Assembly: GCA_009869945.1 (NCBI GenBank)
Contig: WIXG01000037.1
Location: forward strand, 248,001 to 312,000
Source of the DNA: Mesaphorura yosii
Lineage: Eukaryota; Arthropoda; Collembola; Poduromorpha; Tullbergiidae
Direction: 5' to 3'
DNA length: 64,000 bases
A program made the position numbers and the translations under genes. Shown one piece after another: positions 27,457 through 61,289 of the stretch (the stretch's first letter is position 1; every line of letters begins with the position of its first letter). Below the pieces are notes generated by a model. It was given only the letters and a program-made list of their open reading frames with translations. It searched no databases and had not been told where the DNA came from.

Positions 27457-29823
27457 TTATGTCAACTTGTGTTCGAAGGCGTGAATCATTTCTTCTAAGA
27501 ACTTATTCGTTTTCCGCACGTTTCGCATCGCGTTTTCTGGTCTTGAAATCTTGATTAAGGCCATCGATGGCTTCGGTTCTCTCCGCGCTTTGCTACCTGC
27601 GCCCATAAATGGAAGCACGGCTGGGATCAGCTGCTGGGACGCTGTCTGAAGGTTGATGTTGCTGAGTCCGAAAGGCGCTCTTGGAGTCGAGCTGGCAAAT
27701 CCGAAACCTGGCTGCTTGGGCTCTGGCGCCATCATGTACGAGTTTGGCTCCAAGTTTGGCTGTCGGAAGTTGCCCCCGAATACGATGGGTGGCTGAGTTC
27801 CGAAGGCTGGTCCTGCACCGCGAAAAGGTCTCCGTACACTTGCAATGTGTCGTCCGCGGTAGTGCGATCCAATTGGTCGAGGTCTTTCTGCAAACTGCTG
27901 CAGCTGGAAAGGTCTCTGGATCTGCTGTTCGACAAACATCGGCCTTGTTTGTAGTACAACTGGAATTTGCTTGTAAATTGTTGAGAACGACTGTGGGCCG
28001 AGTGGAACTGGGAAATTCACTAACTGTTGATTCACCAGCTGCTGCTGCTGCTGGTGGCTTGCGTATAGGGCAGGATCAAACTGGGGAGCGGGCGTTCCTT
28101 GCAAGGAATTGCTTGTGAGTTCCTCCGAAGGAGGAGGATGGTTGAAATCCTTCAACGGTGCTTGTTCTTGTGCCTGTGTTTGTGTTTGTGCCTGTGCTTG
28201 TGCCTGTGCTTGTGCCTGTGCTTGTGCCTGCGCTTGCGCTTGTGATTCTCTGTAAAAGTTGAGGAATGCAGTGTGTCCAATCTCTGGCGGATTTTGGATG
28301 ACCATGAGTGGGTGAGATTGATGCGCGTAATTCAGTTCCATGGGTCCTGCCGTTGGTGAAGGTGTTGGCTGAACTTGGAATTGTTGAAGCACTTGGCCAT
28401 TTGCTGTCACATATTGCTGTGGAAGACCCTGATGGGGCAGCGAATTGAAGTAAGACGAAGGCAGGGCGACTGGACCCAGCGGCGACTGAGCCACCTGAAT
28501 CAGTTGCTCCTGCTGCGGTTGGCGTGGCTCTCCCTTCTGTCTGATTTGCACGTACTGCGGCTGCGCAGGCCGTATTTGCATAATTTGTGGTTGTGCCGTC
28601 GGAAATGGTGCTGGCCCAAATGGCGATGGTGGCAATGGCCTGACTTGAACGAACTGTTGCTGTGCTGGGCGGGCTTGCAGTATCGAAGGCCCTGGCGGTG
28701 GAGGTGGCCTTCTCGGAACTGGAGGTTGCACTAGCACTGGAGGCATATCATCTTGTTGTTTCTTTGCCTCCTCCAAAACTTGCTGCAGGCGCAATTGTGG
28801 GTGTATGAATGGTTGTGGGGAAGGAGACGGCACCAACTGAACCAAATGTTGTGGAGGATGCATTGTTGGGGCTGGACCTCCCGGGGGGAAAGGATAGTAC
28901 ATTTGCGGTGGCGGAGGATTGGGCTGAGCATAGCCAGGCGGAGGCAGAAACATAATCGGCTGCTGTGGGATCATGTTCGGGTGCACAAACTGGTACGGAT
29001 TTTGTTGCTGCAGGTTTGCGTTGTGTGCGTCTCGTTCTTCCTGCTCAATTTGTTGCTTGATGTGCTGGTTCACGCGCCTCTCTTCTTCTTGGAACGACTC
29101 AACCTTTTGTGATGAAGATTGCTGCTGGTTGGAACCCGGCGGAATCAGATCCAAACTCTCAAGAACGTCCAGCTTTGGAGTCCTGGAAAACAGTGTCGTC
29201 AAGCTGTCCAAGTCTACGGTTCCATTTCCGTCCCCGTACACGGACTGGAATTGCTTGAACGCACTTTGCGCAACACTTTTGTCAGTCCCCTCCAGCCCAG
29301 CCATGGGAAGCTGCTCGAAATTTTGCAGGTTCAGCTTTTCATTGTCGTCAAATCCTACAGTGAGAATTTGGGCCTTCGAACTGCAAAATCACAACGAAAT
29401 AAAAGTCTCATCGCCGAGTTAACTTTCACCTTCCATCTCAAGTGAGTAATTTCAGATTGTTTTTTACCCATACCCGGGCAGATTCAGCGTATGAAGCTGT
29501 TTCACATTCCCGAAGTACTTTGCAACGTCGCCCTCACTCAGTCCAAGCTCTTTTGGGTCCACAGATTCCAGACCGGTTGGAAGTTTGGGGCTTTCGACTC
29601 GCTCCTCTGCTTCTGAGGCTTCAGCTTCGGATTCTGTTTCCACATCGGCGTCGACTTCTTCTTCTCCATCTTGTTCAGCCTGATCTTGATCTTGAGAAGT
29701 GACAAGCTAAACGATAAAGTTTGTAAATTAGAACCGGTACACACAAAGCAGCTGATGAGCAGTCACCTGAACCGAGAACGCCGAGAAAAGGAGGACGCTT
29801 AAGCATATCCACTGGATCCGCAT
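27457..29823 (-). CDS. Secreted Pro/Gln-rich low-complexity protein, 739 aa
   Basis: Three exons join in phase: 29823-29767 (19 codons, donor GTGACT), 29706-29468 (phase 2 end, donor GTAAAA) and 29380-27457 (acceptor TTTTGCAG, stop at 27457). The first exon encodes a classic signal peptide, MRIQWICLSVLLFSAFSVQ. Exon 2 is highly acidic (about residues 20-70) and then has an LGLSEGDVAKYFGNVKQLHTLNLPGYG-type stretch. From about residue 155 the chain is Pro/Gln-rich with PPP runs, repeated QPQ, QIRPAQPQ and VQVRP units, and an alternating Gln-Ala run near residues 478-505. The basic C-terminus ends in a short helical-looking tail (KFLEEMIHAFEHKLT). There are almost no cysteines. The composition resembles extracellular structural or matrix proteins of arthropods (cuticle, silk, eggshell or glue), but no named family is recognised; secretion is well supported, the specific role is not. 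Confidence 0.82.
28163..28244 (-). repeat. Coding minisatellite (Gln-Ala repeat)
   Basis: An imperfect 12-bp unit (plus-strand GCCTGTGCTTGT) is repeated about six times inside the Pro/Gln-rich protein gene and encodes alternating Gln-Ala with two Gln-Thr units at its end. Length variation between individuals is expected for such an array. Confidence 0.85.
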
Positions 29824-34816: not shown

Positions 34817-36371
34817 TCAGCGCGGCCGTCCTCTGAATGACTTGTTTCCAGCTTTCGGAGGTGGTGATTTTGGTCGTAGCGCCTCAATTCGCTCCGTGCA
34901 CCCTGTCGTTGTATTTTTCTCAAAATACGAGGCATACACGTCAGCATTAAAGTTGTCGTTTGTTAATTGTGGGCCAATAGTTAGCCATCCTGGTCGAAGA
35001 GTTGAGTCACGTCCAAACAAATGCAGTCTTCTTTTGCCCAGACAGAAATGCTCGATTATGTGAAATATTTCTGCTGGCTTCTCCAAAGACCCAGAGTCCT
35101 CCTCTTCTGTGATTATGAGGTCAATATCCACGTTCGCATGAATAAAATCGCCATCCGTTGATCGACGAACTGTTCCTTTGATGCCCATTAGGCAATGCTC
35201 CTGAAACACACAATCAGAATCTATTAGAATCTTCCGCGTTCTGCTCCTGCTGCTGAACTCTTCAAATCTGTCCTGACTGCTTACCTTTGTCCTTTGAAAT
35301 ACTGCTTTCGGTTCCAGATTTTTTGTATGCCCCGGATTCTTTATATTCGTGCGAATCCAGCAAATATCTTCACATCTTCGGAAACCCCACCTTCGTAAAC
35401 AAACTCTCCCCATGTCAAGCCCCTCAGAAGAACCACACCACAGAAATATGAAAGATCTCTGAGCAGCTACGGTCGGAATATCCAAAGCTAGTATTTGTTC
35501 CCAATTCCAAAATTCGATATCCCCAGTTATCCCGTAACTGCGCTGATACTCTTCCAAAGGAGGCTCAATTAGGATTACATCAAACTTGGTTTTGATGGAG
35601 CCCAGCGGGAATGTGTGAAGATCGGTCTTCAAGTACATGGGTGGTGAAGCGGTTTCTTGGATTAGATCATCCTGTGTGTTGAACGATCAAATACTTAATG
35701 CGTTTGGCGACAAGGAGCATTTTGAAGATGAGTTCATCACCTTGAGCCTAATGAGTTCCTTCAATTTCGGATACTCCTCAAATCGGTCAGCAAGCCCCAC
35801 ATCCCTGATAAAATTTTGTGGCCTTTGACCCGTGTCAACGAAGTGTTGACAATAATCATTGTGTGGATTTGAGGATTGAGTTCCCTAGAGTGAATAGCAT
35901 TATCATAATTTTAATTCAGTTGAGTTAGACATTGACAGTTAAATTCGTAGTAAAGAATTCCCTTACTTTAAGGAACGTCGACGAGTCTTTGTACACCAGG
36001 GGCGCTTCGCCTTCACTTTTGCTCACCGATGAACCGTCCTTCCCATTTTCTGCCTCCTTCCTACGTTTTTCCTGCGGGAGCGCCGAACTTGGAGTTGTAG
36101 ACTCAGGTTGCTTGTCCGGCCTTTTAGTCGGTTGATTAAGGACAGATTCTGCAGGTTCATGACTTCCGGCTACACCAAGCACAGAATGAAGTTGCTCCAC
36201 AGAATCGACCCCGAACTGGAAGGAGTTTAGTCACAGGCCATGCCATTGGATTATCAATTGTAGTTGCTAGAATTCCAAGTGACTAACCTGCTGTGCAAGC
36301 AAGAGTTTTCGTCGTCTCGATCTTTCTCTCACGGATTTCAATTCATCATCAATATCGACATAATCACTCAT
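34817..36371 (-). CDS. METTL14: METTL14, m6A methyltransferase complex subunit, 415 aa
   Basis: Five exons join in phase 0: 36371-36288, 36215-35967, 35884-35741, 35671-35285 and 35200-34817. METTL14 pairs with METTL3 to methylate N6 of adenosine in nuclear mRNA (DRACH sites); it is the non-catalytic, RNA-binding and scaffolding partner. The diagnostic EPPL tetrapeptide (in place of the catalytic DPPW of METTL3) is at about residues 195-198. Other family hallmarks are [93 protein letters not shown] and RPKSPPPK. The N-terminal helix ([17 protein letters not shown]) is also present. The C-terminal RGG tail, long in vertebrates, is reduced here to about a dozen residues ending SFRGRPR. The fourth intron (35284-35201) is 84 bp, in frame and without a stop codon. 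Confidence 0.97.
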
Positions 36372-55057: not shown

Positions 55058-55069
55058 TTTATTCTTTAA
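54577..55069 (+). other. Long ATG-less open stretch, possible exon
   Basis: The plus strand is open for about 490 bp without a usable ATG at the beginning. It begins with a hydrophobic segment (SIILTTLIVVSVLLLLTLHC) and continues Ser/Thr/His/Asn-rich, with a TTTTVSASSIPSLNENC stretch and a GTAAGT donor-like site at 55046. It could be a coding exon whose start lies in an upstream exon that I could not find. It overlaps, on the opposite strand, the 3' untranslated end and AATAAA of the last tandem gene, which weakens the case. Confidence 0.22.
55058..55063 (-). terminator. Polyadenylation signal of tandem gene C
   Basis: AATAAA on the minus strand 45 bp after the stop at 55108. Confidence 0.7.
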
Positions 55070-55107: not shown

Positions 55108-56915
55108 CTATTTTTGCGCCCACTTCATTTTTTGGGCATGATTGTAATAATACGGGTGCGTGATCGGGAGTAGCAGAGGCAGAGAATAAATTCCGCCATG
55201 TCTCTTCAGCTCAGGGCACGTTGGATACGACTTTTCACAGTTTTCGCCTGTCCTTCCTTTGAATGCCGATTCCTTGAGAAGCTTGAATAATGATTTGTTG
55301 GGTGTCCTATCGAGAATCTGCAGCATTTCGATTATTCCGTCCCTGAAAACGAGTTGGGATATGATAATATGAACTAGAATTACAATTAGGCAGATCTAGA
55401 GAAGGTTCAGGTCAACTTACGTGATCTTCATTCCGAGAATTGTTCCACCAACTTCGACATTTTTGACAATCAGTTGATTCGTACGACACACCTCTTGGAA
55501 GGTGCAGTTGACAGGAATCTTTCCGTTCCGAACGTGCGCCACAACATTCTAGGAAATGAATTGTGTCTCATTATCCCATTACGGTAAGAATCAATAGCTG
55601 CTTTATGCGCTTACAAGTGAAGGCAACACAGCCTGGGAGATGCTATCAATTGCTTCAGTCCCTGGTACAACGGCTGTATCATCCGGGCCAGTAACAGTAG
55701 AAGCATTGTCATCGACTGGAGACCTCTTTCTCCTTCCAGGAGCCATCGTTGTTGTTGTAGTAGTTGTAGTCGTCAGTGCGAGTAGTGCTAGCTACGAATT
55801 GTATTCAGTGTCCGGTTGACTCAAGAGGCATGAAAGAATTCTGTTTGTACCTGAAAGAGGGACAGTAATCCCAGCAAGCCAAGAAGTCCGAGTCCATCCG
55901 TGTTGACGGCACTTACTTTGTAATCTGTATGACTGGTGTGACTCGTGTGTCTGAAACGAACACAACAAACCTTTTAGACGCACGATCTTAAAAGGTTTCT
56001 TATCAGTATTTGTAATGGATTAGCTGGTCAGCTAATTATAGAACTCTTACTTATGGCCTTTCCATCCTTTCCAACCCCAGCCTTTTCCATGGTGTTCATG
56101 CGAAGTTGCGGCCGCCACGGGCCCTGACGACCCGAAAGAATTACTGCCAGCCGCCAACAAGTCCTTTTCATTTTCAATCGCCATCACTGATAAATTGTAG
56201 AAATTCTCAGATCGAGGCTGAAATAGAGTACAGCAAGCTCCAGTATTATGCAGTACTTACAAGAGTTGTACAGCGGAGCTCCTCCATAAGTGTATACATC
56301 AGTCACGTAATCTGGAAGTGATGAAGTTCGGAGTTTGCGAGCGCTGTACGTCAACTCTGAAACAAATTACCGTATAATTGAACGACCAAGCTAGTGACCA
56401 GTGGCGTTTTCTTATCTTAAGGACACTTGTCAAGAGCTGAAGCAGGTTACTCGCGTACCTGGAGTATATCCATAATAATTCCCATTGAAGTACTGCAGGT
56501 GTCGAGGTAAATATGAGCTGGCGTATGCTGAGCCGGGCGTCGAACTTACCGCTTGCTGATGCTGATGGTATTCATTGTATGATGGAAGAAATACGCTTTT
56601 GGTTCCACTGCTTGATGGCGACCGATAAGACGAGTGATATCTGGAATTTGTGGCGTCTACGACATCGATATGACCTTCATGATCGTGATCATGGTTGTCA
56701 GTGTTAACTTTAATGGAGTTTTGTAACTCATTGACGTTGGCATCGTCAATAATAGTTCCACTGATGCCTCTACTGCGTGCAAGGCCGTTGACAATTTTGT
56801 TTTTTTTTTCACAAATCACGTAGCTTTGAGAAATTATAACAGACAGGTACACAAAGACAAAAAGGAACATAGTTTGCTTGTTCTGGAATATGGAGAAGAT
56901 TTCAGACGTGGACAT
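55108..56915 (-). CDS. Tandem secreted-protein family, copy C, 442 aa
   Basis: Seven exons: 56915-56459, 56356-56261, 56186-56051, 55950-55851, 55791-55615, 55548-55421 and 55342-55108, with intron phases 1,1,2,0,0,2. The N-terminus carries a signal sequence (second Met in MFLFVFVYLSVIISQSYVIC; translation may start there or 15 codons earlier). Exon 1 is Tyr/Ser/His-rich. Exon 3 has IENEKDLL and a GKGWGWKGWKGHK tail. Exon 4 carries the hydrophobic GLGLLGLLGLLSLFQ segment continuing into exon 5 (LALLAL), then eight Thr, then a GRRKRS cleavage site of proprotein-convertase type. Exon 6 holds NGKIPVNCTFQEVC and exon 7 ENCEKSYPTC and LPITHPYYYNH. The conserved part after the cleavage site has four cysteines, likely two disulphides. 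Function unknown; secretion is well supported. Confidence 0.87.
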
Positions 56916-56999
56916 GATGGATTGAAGTTTTGGGGAAAGAACATGTCCAAAGGTGCTAAAAGAAAAGCGAATGTCACAGATTGGATCATCAGACGCACG

Positions 57000-57007
57000 C
57001 TTTTATA
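57000..57007 (-). promoter_or_regulatory. TATA box of tandem gene C
   Basis: TATAAAAG on the minus strand, 85-92 bp upstream of the start codon at 56915, and only about 80 bp downstream of the polyadenylation signal of gene B. Confidence 0.6.
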
Positions 57008-57087
57008 GTGTTTGCAGCAACATTTCTGCTAGGAAACCCCAAAATTAGCAGATGCACGCAACCTTGAATCGGAAACCTCCCAAAACT

Positions 57088-57093
57088 TTTATT
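57088..57093 (-). terminator. Polyadenylation signal of tandem gene B
   Basis: AATAAA on the minus strand, 205 bp after the stop at 57298. Confidence 0.65.
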
Positions 57094-57297
57094 GAATCAG
57101 ACGGGCAAAAATACGACCAATCAAGCACGAATATGAAGGTAGCTAACAGAGTTAACAAAGCCAAGACAGGAGCAACTGAAGCTTAATGTCTTCATTACTC
57201 GGTCGAAATGATTATCTCGGTTCAATTACTACTAAACAGCAGCAGTAACGATTACGGAAAGTACGCACTATTTTTGTACACCGCATGATTTCACGCT

Positions 57298-59152
57298 TCA
57301 ATTGGATTTGCTCTCTTTGCCAAACTTAATTTTCTGCGAATGGTTGTAGTAATACGGGTGAGAAATTGGCAACAGAAGTGGCAGCGAGTAAAGTCCACCA
57401 GGCTTCCTCAGCGCACTGCAGGTTGGATAGTGTTTCTCGCAAGTTTCTCCCATTCTTCCCTTGAACGAAGCATCCTTCAATAGTTTTGCCAACGATTTGT
57501 CAGACGTTTTGTCGAGGAACTGCAGCATTTCAATGATGCCGTCTCTAAAATATGGATATGCAGCTTGCACGAGTTGTTTCATTTCCAAACCTTCATTGAG
57601 GGCAACGTGCAAGAACTTACGTGATCTTAATTCCGATAATTGCGCCTCCAACTTCGATGTTCTTAACAATCAGTTGATTCGTGCGACATACTTCTTGGAA
57701 TGTGCAGTTTATGGGGATCTTGCCGTTTCGAGCATGAGCCACGACATTCTGAAATATTGTCATGAGAATGTGAACATAAATTAAGCTGGCGGAGATCGTT
57801 TCATTCTTACAAGAGAGGGAAGGACAATCCTTGAGATGCTGTCAATCGCGTCTGGGTCCGACTCAGAAACAACCACCGTGTCGTCCTGCGCTGCTGGGAA
57901 ATAATCGGATACGGATCTCTTCCTCCTTCCTGGAGCTGGAGCCATCGTTGTTGTTGTTGTTGTTGTTGTAGTTGTCAACGCCAGCAGTGCAAGCTAAAAT
58001 ATTGTTGAGCCTTTCTAAATTGGACAATTTGTTCAGGCGCTAAAGTCAATCGTTCGTGTTTTATACCTGGAACAAAGACAGCAATCCGAGGAGGCCGAGC
58101 AGTCCGAGTCCGTCAGTGTTGACGGCGCTTACTTTATAATCTGTGTGGCTGGTGTGACTCGTGTGCCTGAAAATCAGTAGCAATATTTAGGAGGATCCTC
58201 AACGTATCTTAATGCGAACAAAAGTAGCAGTGCTCATTGCACTTCAAATTCTTACTTCTTCTTTCCTTTCTTCCAACCTTTTTTCCAGCCTTTTCCATGT
58301 CCATGTCCGAAATGTCCAAAGTCAGAATGGTCTTCCTCCGTGTCGGAATCCCACCCGTGCCCGTGTCCATGGTATGAACTGCCACTCGATAGCAAGTCCT
58401 TTTCCTTCTCAATTGCTGTTACTATTTTTGTTAAGATCAGCATATTAGATGCATTTCATCTAACTTGTTATCGTTATCAGTGGCATTTGGCGACTTACGT
58501 GAATTGTAAAGAGGGGCTCCTCCATACGCTTCGCTGAGGTATTCTGGAATCGGCGAATATCGGAGCTGGCGCGCACTGTATGTCGACTCTGTAATGCATT
58601 GAATCGTCTATGGTGAAGGCCAAATCGTGGATGTGGTTTTAATATGCAATTTTTGCTATTAATTATTCCTTCCTTACCCGGCGAGTACGTATAACTGTGA
58701 GGATAATGAGAGCTGTAGAATTGTAAATGTTGAGGTAAATATGAGTTCAGCGGGCTGGGCGTCGGATTCAGGGCTGATTGATGCTGGTGCTGATATTCGT
58801 AGTAGGATGGTTGGAATACGCTGCTACCACCATTGCCAGTCATGATCAAGGGCGATGCGATTACTGATGAGAATTTGGAACTAGTGGAAGCGTGTGCGCT
58901 GTTTTCCGAGTCTGAATTAGTGCCATGACTGCCGCTTCCACTGCTAGATCCAGGATTGTGCTCGTTTTCTGTATTAATTTCTCGGCCACTGATACTCCGA
59001 CTTTGTGCGAAATTGCTGATCGTTTTGCTTCCGCCGCCGCTCTTAACACAATTAACATCATTTTGGATGACTATTGAACACAGTAGCAGAATGTTTATTA
59101 GACGGGTCCCGTACCGCCGTTTGAAGTAAGAATGAAATGCAATGTTATACAT
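57298..59152 (-). CDS. Tandem secreted-protein family, copy B, 462 aa
   Basis: Seven exons: 59152-58678, 58588-58499, 58421-58256, 58166-58067, 57993-57811, 57748-57621 and 57544-57298, with the same phases (1,1,2,0,0,2) as copy C. The start MYNIAFHSYFKRRYG precedes a hydrophobic LINILLLCSIVIQ segment (signal peptide or signal anchor). Exon 1 is Ser/Gly/His/Tyr-rich with YEYQHQHQ and SYLPQHLQFY, the latter matching SYLPRHLQYF in copy C. Exon 3 has IEKEKDLL and a His/Gly-rich HGHGHGW run ending WKKGWKKGKK. Exons 4-5 encode the same TSHTSHTDYKVSAVNTDG lead-in, GLGLLGLLGLLSLFQ, ten Thr, and PGRRKRS. Exon 6 (NGKIPINCTFQEVCRTNQ) and exon 7 (GETCEKHYPTC, HPYYYNHSQK) are nearly the same as in copy C, so B and C are the most recent pair. 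Confidence 0.88.
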
Positions 59153-59233
59153 TACTCAACGTAAAGTTCGAAGTGGAGCTCCAGTTTGGGGTTGCTAGAC
59201 TAAACTGGGGAGCAGATTTGTCGATTTCGATCA

Positions 59234-59241
59234 TTTATATA
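59234..59241 (-). promoter_or_regulatory. TATA box of tandem gene B
   Basis: TATATAAA on the minus strand, about 82 bp upstream of the start codon at 59152, at almost the same distance as in copy C. Confidence 0.6.
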
Positions 59242-59402
59242 AGTTCTTAATCGAAACATGATTCGATTCTTCTTATCGTCAGCAACAACTTAGTATTTGC
59301 TGTTAGCACTGCTTCGCTCCTCAGTGTTTATTGGATCGGACATGCTCATGCTAACAATGAAGATGGTGTAAACGAAGATTGTTGTTTAGAGTAATCTTGC
59401 AC

Positions 59403-59408
59403 ATTTAT
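59403..59408 (-). terminator. Polyadenylation signal of tandem gene A
   Basis: AATAAA on the minus strand, 146 bp after the stop at 59554. Confidence 0.6.
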
Positions 59409-59553
59409 TCCGGCTCATTTGTCCTTAATTTAACCACATACGCGTTTTGCTTGTGTGTATTTTGAACGTGCTCGGCCAATAGAAAACAAACCAAACCAGC
59501 TATCTCAATGGAGGAAGATACTCGAGTACGCGCCGATGTGCCACGCCAATTAG

Positions 59554-61289
59554 TCAACCATGCAGTTGTAGTTCAAGCAGCGACGGCGGATGAAAAGCTG
59601 TGCCATTTTTGTGTCTCATTTCAGCACACAGCGGATAAAGAAGGCCACAGTCCAAGTCTGCAAGTCCGTTTTTTCTTGCCGCATCGACTGACTTTATCAG
59701 GTCGTTGCTTGTGGTCTCCGATTCAGAAGCAGGAAGTGCGCCGTGTCGTTGGAGCAAAAGATCTCGTATCGCGTGACTGGGAGAAAGTAACAGTCGCATT
59801 GTTGGGCAATGGGGCTGCTTACTTCCGAAACAGAACTCTCAACTTACTTTTAGTGTGGAAAGCACTCACCTCATTTTCTCGGCAACATTCGTGCCCATCA
59901 CACCGTACGCGCCGAGTTCCTTCTTTATGATCTTGTTTACAAAACACACTTGTCGCTGTGTGCAATTCAATGAAATTGTTCCTTGTCTCGCATGTGCGAT
60001 TACATTCTTGAGATAAGGAAAAATTGCTCATTAATGGCAGGTCGAAATGCAGTGTTCGAAACGTTCTAGGTCGTACCAAGTAAGGGAGAACGAGACTTGT
60101 GAGCTGGTCAGTCTGCGCTTTGTGGCTGTGGACGCTATCGTAATCTGTGCCCTCATCTTCCGGTGTGTCTCGCTTACGCCGTCTTCCCGGCGCTGGAGCG
60201 GGCGCTGGAGCTGCTGTGGTAGCTCTGAAGGCTGCCAGAACTCCCTGTCGTAGTTAAAGACACCAGAAACATAACACGCTATTTTACTCTTATGGAACAA
60301 GCTTTCTTACCTGAAGAAGTGATAGCAGTCCAAGAAGTCCCAGCAATCCAAGACCTTTTTCGCCCAATCCATTATTTCCATGTCCGTGACCCCAGCTGGC
60401 AATTAAAAATTGAAATACGGTGCGTTACGGCACTTGTATCAAGATACAAACAAAAACAACAATAATTAACCTACCCGTGGTGATGTTTTCCACCACCACC
60501 TCCTCCTCCGCCTGCTGCGGACATGTACATGTCAGAAACCGGAGAATCTATGCAGTAAACAAAGAAAATACCACGTTGTTAGACGACGTCTGGCCACCCG
60601 CCCACTTTACATATGCTACGTGCACAGCCTCGTGCTCATTCATACAAGTTAATCTAGTCTAAACCTGCGTAATTTGTGGCCGCTGGTGAAAGATGAGCGT
60701 AGCTGTTCGTCATGGAGCTCGATGGATTATATTCTCTCGCAGTCCTTTCATACGGGTCTGTTCAAAGCAAATACAAAGTCAACATGGCATGCATAATTCG
60801 AATTCAGAATGAAATTCCGACGTAGTTTCGGTTTTGGTGGTGAATAGAACACGAAACTAATTGCTAAATCTGAATCGTACCAGCGATAATTGGATTAGCA
60901 CCTCCATAGAGATAATTGCTATTGTATCGGTATGAATTGGATGAGGATGGGTACGAGCTGTATCCTCCAAGGCCGTAGTAGCCAGAATTGAGATTGCTGT
61001 ACGAGGAGAACGATGACGCTGGATGTGGACCGATCATGGATGAGTGCGAATGCGATGGCGATATGGAACTCGAATGTGCCGAGTACTTTGGTTTCGAGCT
61101 GTGACGGTGTTCGGATCCGTGTTTTCCACCACCGCCGCCATTGTTGCTTATGCTGTTCAAGTCAAGGTCTTCTGGTGACGACGGGCTCAGTCCTTTCGCA
61201 CCACACACTTCATGAACACTCAAAACCACAATCAACAACGGCACCGCTAATCCAGCTACCACAAATCTCTGCTTTGCAAGGCGAGTCAT
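59554..61289 (-). CDS. Tandem secreted-protein family, copy A (diverged), 395 aa
   Basis: Seven exons: 61289-60881, 60757-60665, 60547-60475, 60395-60311, 60244-60077, 60006-59870 and 59776-59554, with the same intron phases as B and C. The ATG at 61289 is chosen because it precedes a clear signal peptide (RFVVAGLAVPLLIVVLSV then HEVCG). Exon 1 is Ser/His/Tyr-rich with YYGLGGYSSYPSSS-type repeats; exon 3 has a run of eight Gly and KHHHG. Exon 4 keeps the hallmark GLGLLGLLGLLSLLQ. Exon 5 replaces poly-Thr with an Ala-Pro run and keeps the cleavage motif as GRRRKRD. Exon 6 keeps NVIAHARQGTISLNCTQRQVC and exon 7 keeps the cysteine pair as DLDCGLLYPLC, but the HPYYYNH ending is absent, replaced by HPPSLLELQLHG. 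It is the most diverged copy. Function unknown. Confidence 0.85.

Follow-up and report, generated by a model that had tools for sequence, protein, structure and literature searches.

A tandem gene cluster of Mesaphorura yosii encoding predicted secreted precursors with a four-cysteine domain probably related to DM4/DM12

Gene models of copies A, B and C

The DNA analysed here, referred to below as the window, is a stretch of 64,000 nucleotides from the collembolan Mesaphorura yosii (GenBank assembly GCA_009869945.1, contig WIXG01000037.1, positions 248,001 to 312,000 of the forward strand), and belongs to contig C37 in a genome of 93 Mb and 1127 contigs. Between positions 55,108 and 61,289, the minus strand carries three tandem genes, named A, B and C, whose products are predicted to be secreted precursors ending in a four-cysteine domain that probably descends from the DM4/DM12 family (Pfam PF07841). 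The exon joins are predicted, having been picked from the sequence, and gave the following spliced open frames:

61289-60881, 60757-60665, 60547-60475, 60395-60311, 60244-60077, 60006-59870, 59776-59554 (span 59554..61289), minus strand: copy A, seven coding exons, 395 amino acids
59152-58678, 58588-58499, 58421-58256, 58166-58067, 57993-57811, 57748-57621, 57544-57298 (span 57298..59152), minus strand: copy B, seven coding exons, 462 amino acids
56915-56459, 56356-56261, 56186-56051, 55950-55851, 55791-55615, 55548-55421, 55342-55108 (span 55108..56915), minus strand: copy C, seven coding exons, 442 amino acids

No internal stops were present in the spliced translations, GT-AG borders were found at all 18 introns of the three copies, whose lengths range from 59 to 123 bases, and A, B and C had identical intron phases (1,1,2,0,0,2). 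A first interpretation of this DNA, made without database searches (hereafter the sequence-only reading), had proposed head-to-tail copies with seven exons each and this series of phases, and the spliced models bear it out. In copy C, a second in-frame ATG at 56870 would give an alternative product of 427 amino acids.

The same reading had listed a shared sequence, a tetrabasic site, the motif NCTxxxVC and a second cysteine pair as common elements; GLGLLGLLGLLS, the basic site in the form R-x-[KR]-R, NCTxxxVC and the second pair were present in 3/3 copies. The hydropathy of A, B and C was computed, and its two top peaks corresponded to the N-terminal leader (1.71-2.27 over 19 residues), read as such from the sequence, and to a Gly-Leu segment containing GLLG (2.1-2.25). 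The conserved parts of the three genes are distributed over the exons as follows, exon 4 being assigned by spliced model and hydropathy, exon 5 by sequence, and exons 6-7 by alignment and profile comparison:

60311..60395, minus strand: exon 4 of A, hydrophobic GLGLLGLLGLLSLLQ segment
58067..58166, minus strand: exon 4 of B, hydrophobic GLLG segment, within a 113-base block with 84% identity to C
55851..55950, minus strand: exon 4 of C, hydrophobic GLLG segment
60077..60244, minus strand: exon 5 of A, basic (furin-type) site
57811..57993, minus strand: exon 5 of B, basic site and Thr run
55615..55791, minus strand: exon 5 of C, basic site and Thr run
59554..60006, minus strand: exons 6-7 of A, four-cysteine (DM4/DM12-like) domain
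57298..57748, minus strand: exons 6-7 of B, four-cysteine domain
55108..55548, minus strand: exons 6-7 of C, four-cysteine domain, scoring 15.1 bits against PF07841 (curated cut-off 22 bits)

Divergence and selection among the copies

Protein identity was 60% between B and C and 32% between A and B, copy A being far more diverged than B and C are from each other. The proposal that exon architecture is kept despite this divergence holds for the phases throughout, but exons 1-3 of A, which match the phases of B and C, align poorly with them. In the B-C comparison, exons 4-7 showed 78% identity, with a nonsynonymous divergence (dN) of 0.14, a synonymous divergence (dS) of about 2, which is near saturation, and a dN/dS of about 0.07, while exons 1-3 showed 44% identity, a dN of 0.51 and a saturated dS. 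By this estimate, exons 4-7 of B and C are under purifying selection, and A, B and C seem to be genuine duplicates of considerable age in which the second half has been conserved. Chance is an unlikely source of the gene models, given the B-C dN of 0.14 against a dS of about 2 and the phase-matching relatives found on another contig.

Two further members on contig C523

These relatives came from a genome search with the second half of B, which revealed a homologue on contig C523 (33% identity, E value 2.9e-12). The region, locus L034, consists of two tandem genes, D1 and D2:

L034 4372-2858, minus strand: D1, 312 or 313 amino acids, phases 1,2,0, cysteine domain without introns
L034 2080-571, minus strand: D2, 342 amino acids, phases 1,2,0,0,2

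The phases 2,0,0,2 of D2 are those of exons 4 to 7 in A, B and C, and D1 retains 2,0 around the GLLG exon. In D1, two successive candidates for this exon were found on the minus strand (L034 3814-3757, 58 bases, and 3507-3447, 61 bases), both running from phase 2 to phase 0. Neither length is a multiple of three, so that the two are not usable together in frame, and we infer that they are mutually exclusive.

Alignment of the five sequences revealed invariant positions that include G-L-L-G, the R-R-K-R run, N-C at the first cysteine pair, all four cysteines and a Gly preceding Cys3. All five copies have the four C-terminal cysteines and Cys-x5-Cys, and 4/5 have Cys-x6-Cys (D1: Cys-x7-Cys). An N-C-[ST] sequon lies at Cys1 in 5/5, as NCT in A, B and C and as NCS in D1 and D2, and Cys2 and Cys3 are separated by 56-67 residues. 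The sequences themselves establish the open spliced frames, the layout, the conserved second half and the kinship of the five copies. The "three-gene" family of the sequence-only reading was too narrow, since homology, phases and the five-sequence alignment also place D1 and D2 in it.

No other credible member was found in genome searches with protein parts of A, B, D1 and D2 and with the DNA of C; such searches give lower bounds, and the family comprises at least five genes in two clusters. A match on contig C129 (E 0.67) was dropped, its open frames having no feature of the family, and a further weak match lay on contig C941 (E 5.5). Downstream of D2 on contig C523 lies a gene at L033 9796-8800 (minus strand), whose motifs suggest a PI-PLC X-domain-like protein.

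Promoter and polyadenylation signals

Sequence matches to TATA boxes and polyadenylation signals were found on the minus strand around the three copies:

59234..59241, minus strand: TATA box of B, TATATAAA, 89 bp before the ATG
57000..57007, minus strand: TATA box of C, TATAAAAG, 92 bp before the ATG
59327..59332, minus strand: AATAAA following A, 91 bp upstream of the B TATA box; three AATAAA/ATTAAA sites, this one included, lie in the 600 bp beyond A
57088..57093, minus strand: AATAAA following B, 86 bp upstream of the C TATA box; two AATAAA/ATTAAA sites, this one included, lie beyond B
55058..55063, minus strand: AATAAA after C

TATA boxes had been placed about 85 bp before the ATG of B and C; the boxes are present, but the measured distances are slightly greater, as listed. 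The polyadenylation signals said to lie near the next promoter were located, at 59332 and 57093. The boxes of D1 and D2 stand at -74 and -90, so that the range across the family is -74 to -92 in 4/5 members, and no TATA box was found within 150 bp upstream of the ATG of A. TATA boxes in four of the five members are compatible with co-regulation, which they do not demonstrate.

Pfam and other database searches

PF07841 is an arthropod family, and DM4/DM12 proteins have a cysteine layout similar to that of the five members, a likeness that was put to the test. When the genome was searched with PF07841, four loci (L026, L027, L028 and L029) scored above the cut-off and three (L030, L031 and L032) below it; L031 passes once two exons are joined, with 34.8 bits against the cut-off of 22. 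When the second halves of the five family members were scanned at E up to 10, PF07841 was the sole Pfam family listed, for two of the five (C, 13.0 bits; D2, 12.9 bits; best E 0.17), in a scan whose filters remove the bulk of matches above about 0.1. When the domains were scanned in isolation, those of C and D2 matched it with 15.1 bits (E 0.04) and 14.7 bits (E 0.052), covering Cys1 to Cys4.

Full-length A, B and C gave sub-threshold matches to unrelated Pfam models only (best E 0.053; nothing for B), as did full-length D1 and D2 (best E 0.11). A profile search of PDB returned no relative at E up to 10, and 57 pattern matches in viral contigs included no relative.

Profile comparison and intron positions

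For profile comparison, the DM4/DM12-like set consisted of six proteins from the same genome (L026 to L031); L031 was absent from the first alignment and added later, and L032, with a weak match to profile positions 11-39 only, was left out of all alignments. Comparison of the family with this set by hhalign gave P values of 5.6e-5 and 6e-6 in the two directions for the first alignment, in which two rows were short by about 10 residues, and of 1.2e-5 and 8.3e-7 after rows had been corrected and added; the hhalign probability was 66 to 92% overall. The real score was reached by none of 700 column shuffles (0/200 free and 0/200 cysteine-fixed for the first alignment, 0/300 cysteine-fixed for the revised one), and a reversed profile used as control failed to match (0.22). 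When single rows were left out, P lay between 1.8e-5 and 3.4e-4 for rows of the family and between 3.8e-5 and 0.0018 for DM4/DM12 rows. When 1005 sequences (5 real and 1000 cysteine-fixed shuffles) were scored with a hidden Markov model (HMM) of the six DM4/DM12-like proteins, ranks 2 to 5 went to B, A, D2 and C, and in the reverse search with the family profile L029 ranked 1st of 1206; the single-sequence scores overlap those of the best shuffles. For the relation to DM4/DM12, profile-profile comparison is stronger than the Pfam matches.

The gene structures also showed a likeness. A phase-2 intron follows Cys2 at the 23rd codon in L027, L029 and L031, whose splice sites were picked from the sequence, at the 22nd in B and C, at the 23rd in D2 and at the 25th in A; D1 has no intron at the matching place, and L026 and L028 have none across the whole domain. 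In L031, a leader, a hydrophobic segment, the sequence RVRRD and four cysteines follow one another, as read by eye with a putative upstream join. The like phase and similar position of the intron are suggestive of a common origin of the domain.

Proposed explanation and alternatives

We consider it reasonably probable that A, B and C make up one of the tandem clusters of a family, five genes or more in size, which forms a diverged branch of DM4/DM12, and that their products are precursors cut to free a two-disulphide domain. The precursor would consist of a leader, about 200 fast-changing residues rich in Ser, Gly, Tyr and His, the hydrophobic Gly-Leu segment, R-x-[KR]-R and the C-terminal cysteine domain. 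The leader, basic site, sequon and paired cysteines point to a secretory route, in which the protein would enter the secretory pathway, a furin-type protease would cut at R-x-[KR]-R and the four cysteines would pair into two disulphides. The freed and glycosylated domain may then act outside the cell, and the His/Gly/Ser/Tyr-rich part may stay at the membrane or cell surface or in the apical matrix (cuticle). The earlier description of a secreted tandem family with a processing site stands in its visible parts, namely the leader-like hydrophobic start, the basic site and the conserved exon architecture.

Several results weigh against this explanation. The PF07841 cut-off was reached by none of the five members in full-length, second-half or isolated-domain scans; the family was unlisted for full-length A, B and C (E up to 1) and D1 and D2 (E up to 10), for the second halves of A, B and D1, and for the isolated domains of B and D1 among the four scanned (B, C, D1 and D2). 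In the isolated-domain scan, B matched a peptidase model (E 0.14) and D2 a holin model (E 0.19), and with unrelated models within a factor of five in E the PF07841 matches alone prove nothing. The hhalign result weakened to P 0.0018 when L029 was removed from the first alignment, and was weaker with sub-sets of the DM4/DM12-like proteins (L026, L027 and L029, 1.6e-4; L028 and L031, 0.016; L030, 0.034). One cysteine-fixed shuffle ranked above all five real sequences in the HMM ranking, where D1 was 17th, and in the reverse search L026 was 12th and L031 23rd of 1206, with L027, L028 and L030 outside the best 25. The family and DM4/DM12 introns fall in different columns of the revised hhalign alignment, and because they are not superimposed the intron match counts as suggestive only. 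Regarding topology, a GLLG segment spanning the membrane behind a cleaved leader would leave the cysteine domain in the cytosol, contradicting furin cutting, disulphides and sequon, so the segment would be either buried in an assembly or not membrane-spanning. Finally, DM4/DM12 is itself described as a domain without known function in PMC12825958, and so offers this family no function to borrow. Taken together, the profile evidence supports, and does not prove, that the four-cysteine domain probably descends from DM4/DM12. The proteins had been called unrecognised, which is accurate insofar as every member scores below the Pfam cut-offs, but not with regard to this probable descent.

Another possibility, which we hold only tentatively, is that the products are structural proteins of the cuticle or apical matrix, in which the His/Gly/Tyr-rich N-terminal half does the work, either crosslinked or binding metal, while the C-terminal domain assists folding or sorting. 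In A, B and C, the initial 230 residues contain 5-7% His together with Gly/Ser/Tyr runs, D1 and D2 have HGHG runs, and TATA boxes in 4/5 genes would suit strongly regulated genes. However, the N-terminal half is the least conserved part, and the Pfam scans of the full-length members listed no cuticle domain, chitin-binding or otherwise.

It is rather unlikely that the genes form an independent, lineage-specific secreted family whose four-cysteine likeness to DM4/DM12 arose by convergence of small disulphide domains. The failure of every member to pass the PF07841 cut-off, the weaker hhalign results with sub-profiles and the single high-ranking shuffle speak for convergence; against it stand the full-profile hhalign score, which beat all the shuffles in three control sets, the scan of the five members, in which PF07841 was the one Pfam family to appear, the comparable distance of a phase-2 intron from Cys2, and L031 with its leader, hydrophobic segment, basic site and four cysteines in the same order.

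The sequence-only reading had also raised processed, hormone-like extracellular ligands, with the C-terminal piece as the active signal. A leader-like start, a conserved basic site, a conserved cysteine-containing C-terminal part and a poorly conserved N-terminal part (B-C identity of 44% in exons 1-3 vs 78% in exons 4-7) would fit such ligands, but we regard them as unlikely: the freed piece would be about 150 residues long, no Pfam hormone or growth-factor domain was listed for it, and the PDB search gave no relative. Equally doubtful is a bolder reading of the family as independent, in which its secreted precursors, five or more in number, would have no relation to DM4/DM12 and would use a dedicated Gly-Leu helix exon, in two exclusive versions in D1, and the basic site to deliver a glycosylated two-disulphide domain as an undescribed extracellular component. 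Misprediction or decay of the genes, which could be raised for models predicted from sequence, is very improbable, since all five copies splice into open frames and have phases in common, and in view of the B-C dN/dS in exons 4-7.

Other features of the window

Elsewhere in the window, a long open frame at 34820-35686 (minus strand) matched MT-A70 (PF05063, E 8.4e-54) and presumably encodes a METTL14-type methyltransferase. At 27460-29388 (minus strand) lies a Pro/Gln-rich open frame of 643 amino acids that contains an extended Gln-Ala repeat and matched nothing in Pfam at E 0.01. Scans of the window for Rfam families and tRNAs gave no hits.

Comparison with known systems

Osiris proteins (DUF1676, PF07898), which also have motifs such as AQxLAY, are similar to the family in having a leader and a hydrophobic stretch. 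They differ in that DUF1676 was unlisted for any of the five members, and membership in Osiris was rejected on the scans of A, B, C, D1 and D2. In the genome, DUF1676 gave one match just above its cut-off (24.7 vs 24.3 bits) and one below it, neither at the family loci, in an exon-by-exon search that sets a lower bound; the match above the cut-off (L050, contig C222:34886-35215, minus strand) lies within an open frame of 287 amino acids. In PMC12825958, Osiris is given as a large insect-specific family, and two planthopper Osiris proteins are reported to contain DM4_12 as well. Within the bounds of that search, a lone DUF1676 match above the cut-off makes a typical insect source less likely; the several PF07841 members of the genome fit an arthropod. 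The DM412 of PMC8238462 is a transposon and thus another meaning of a similar name.

The family shares with DM4/DM12 proteins a C-terminal four-cysteine domain with Cys-x5-Cys and Cys-x6-Cys, a comparable spacing of Cys2 and Cys3 (48-57 residues in L026, L027 and L029 vs 56-67 in the family) and, as a suggestive likeness, a phase-2 intron at the 22nd-25th codon after Cys2 in four of its five copies (23rd in L027, L029 and L031); L031 also has its leader, hydrophobic segment, basic site and domain arranged as in the family. It differs by scoring under the Pfam cut-off; by N-C-[ST] at Cys1, present there in 0/6 DM4/DM12-like sequences; and by placing GLLG in an exon of its own, with phase 2 at one border and phase 0 at the other, together with a His/Gly-rich N-terminal half. 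As a probable sister branch of DM4/DM12, the family suggests that the PF07841 model leaves out part of the superfamily, and it would add a conserved cleavage site, a sequon on Cys1 and a Gly-Leu exon, and thus concrete residues for testing.

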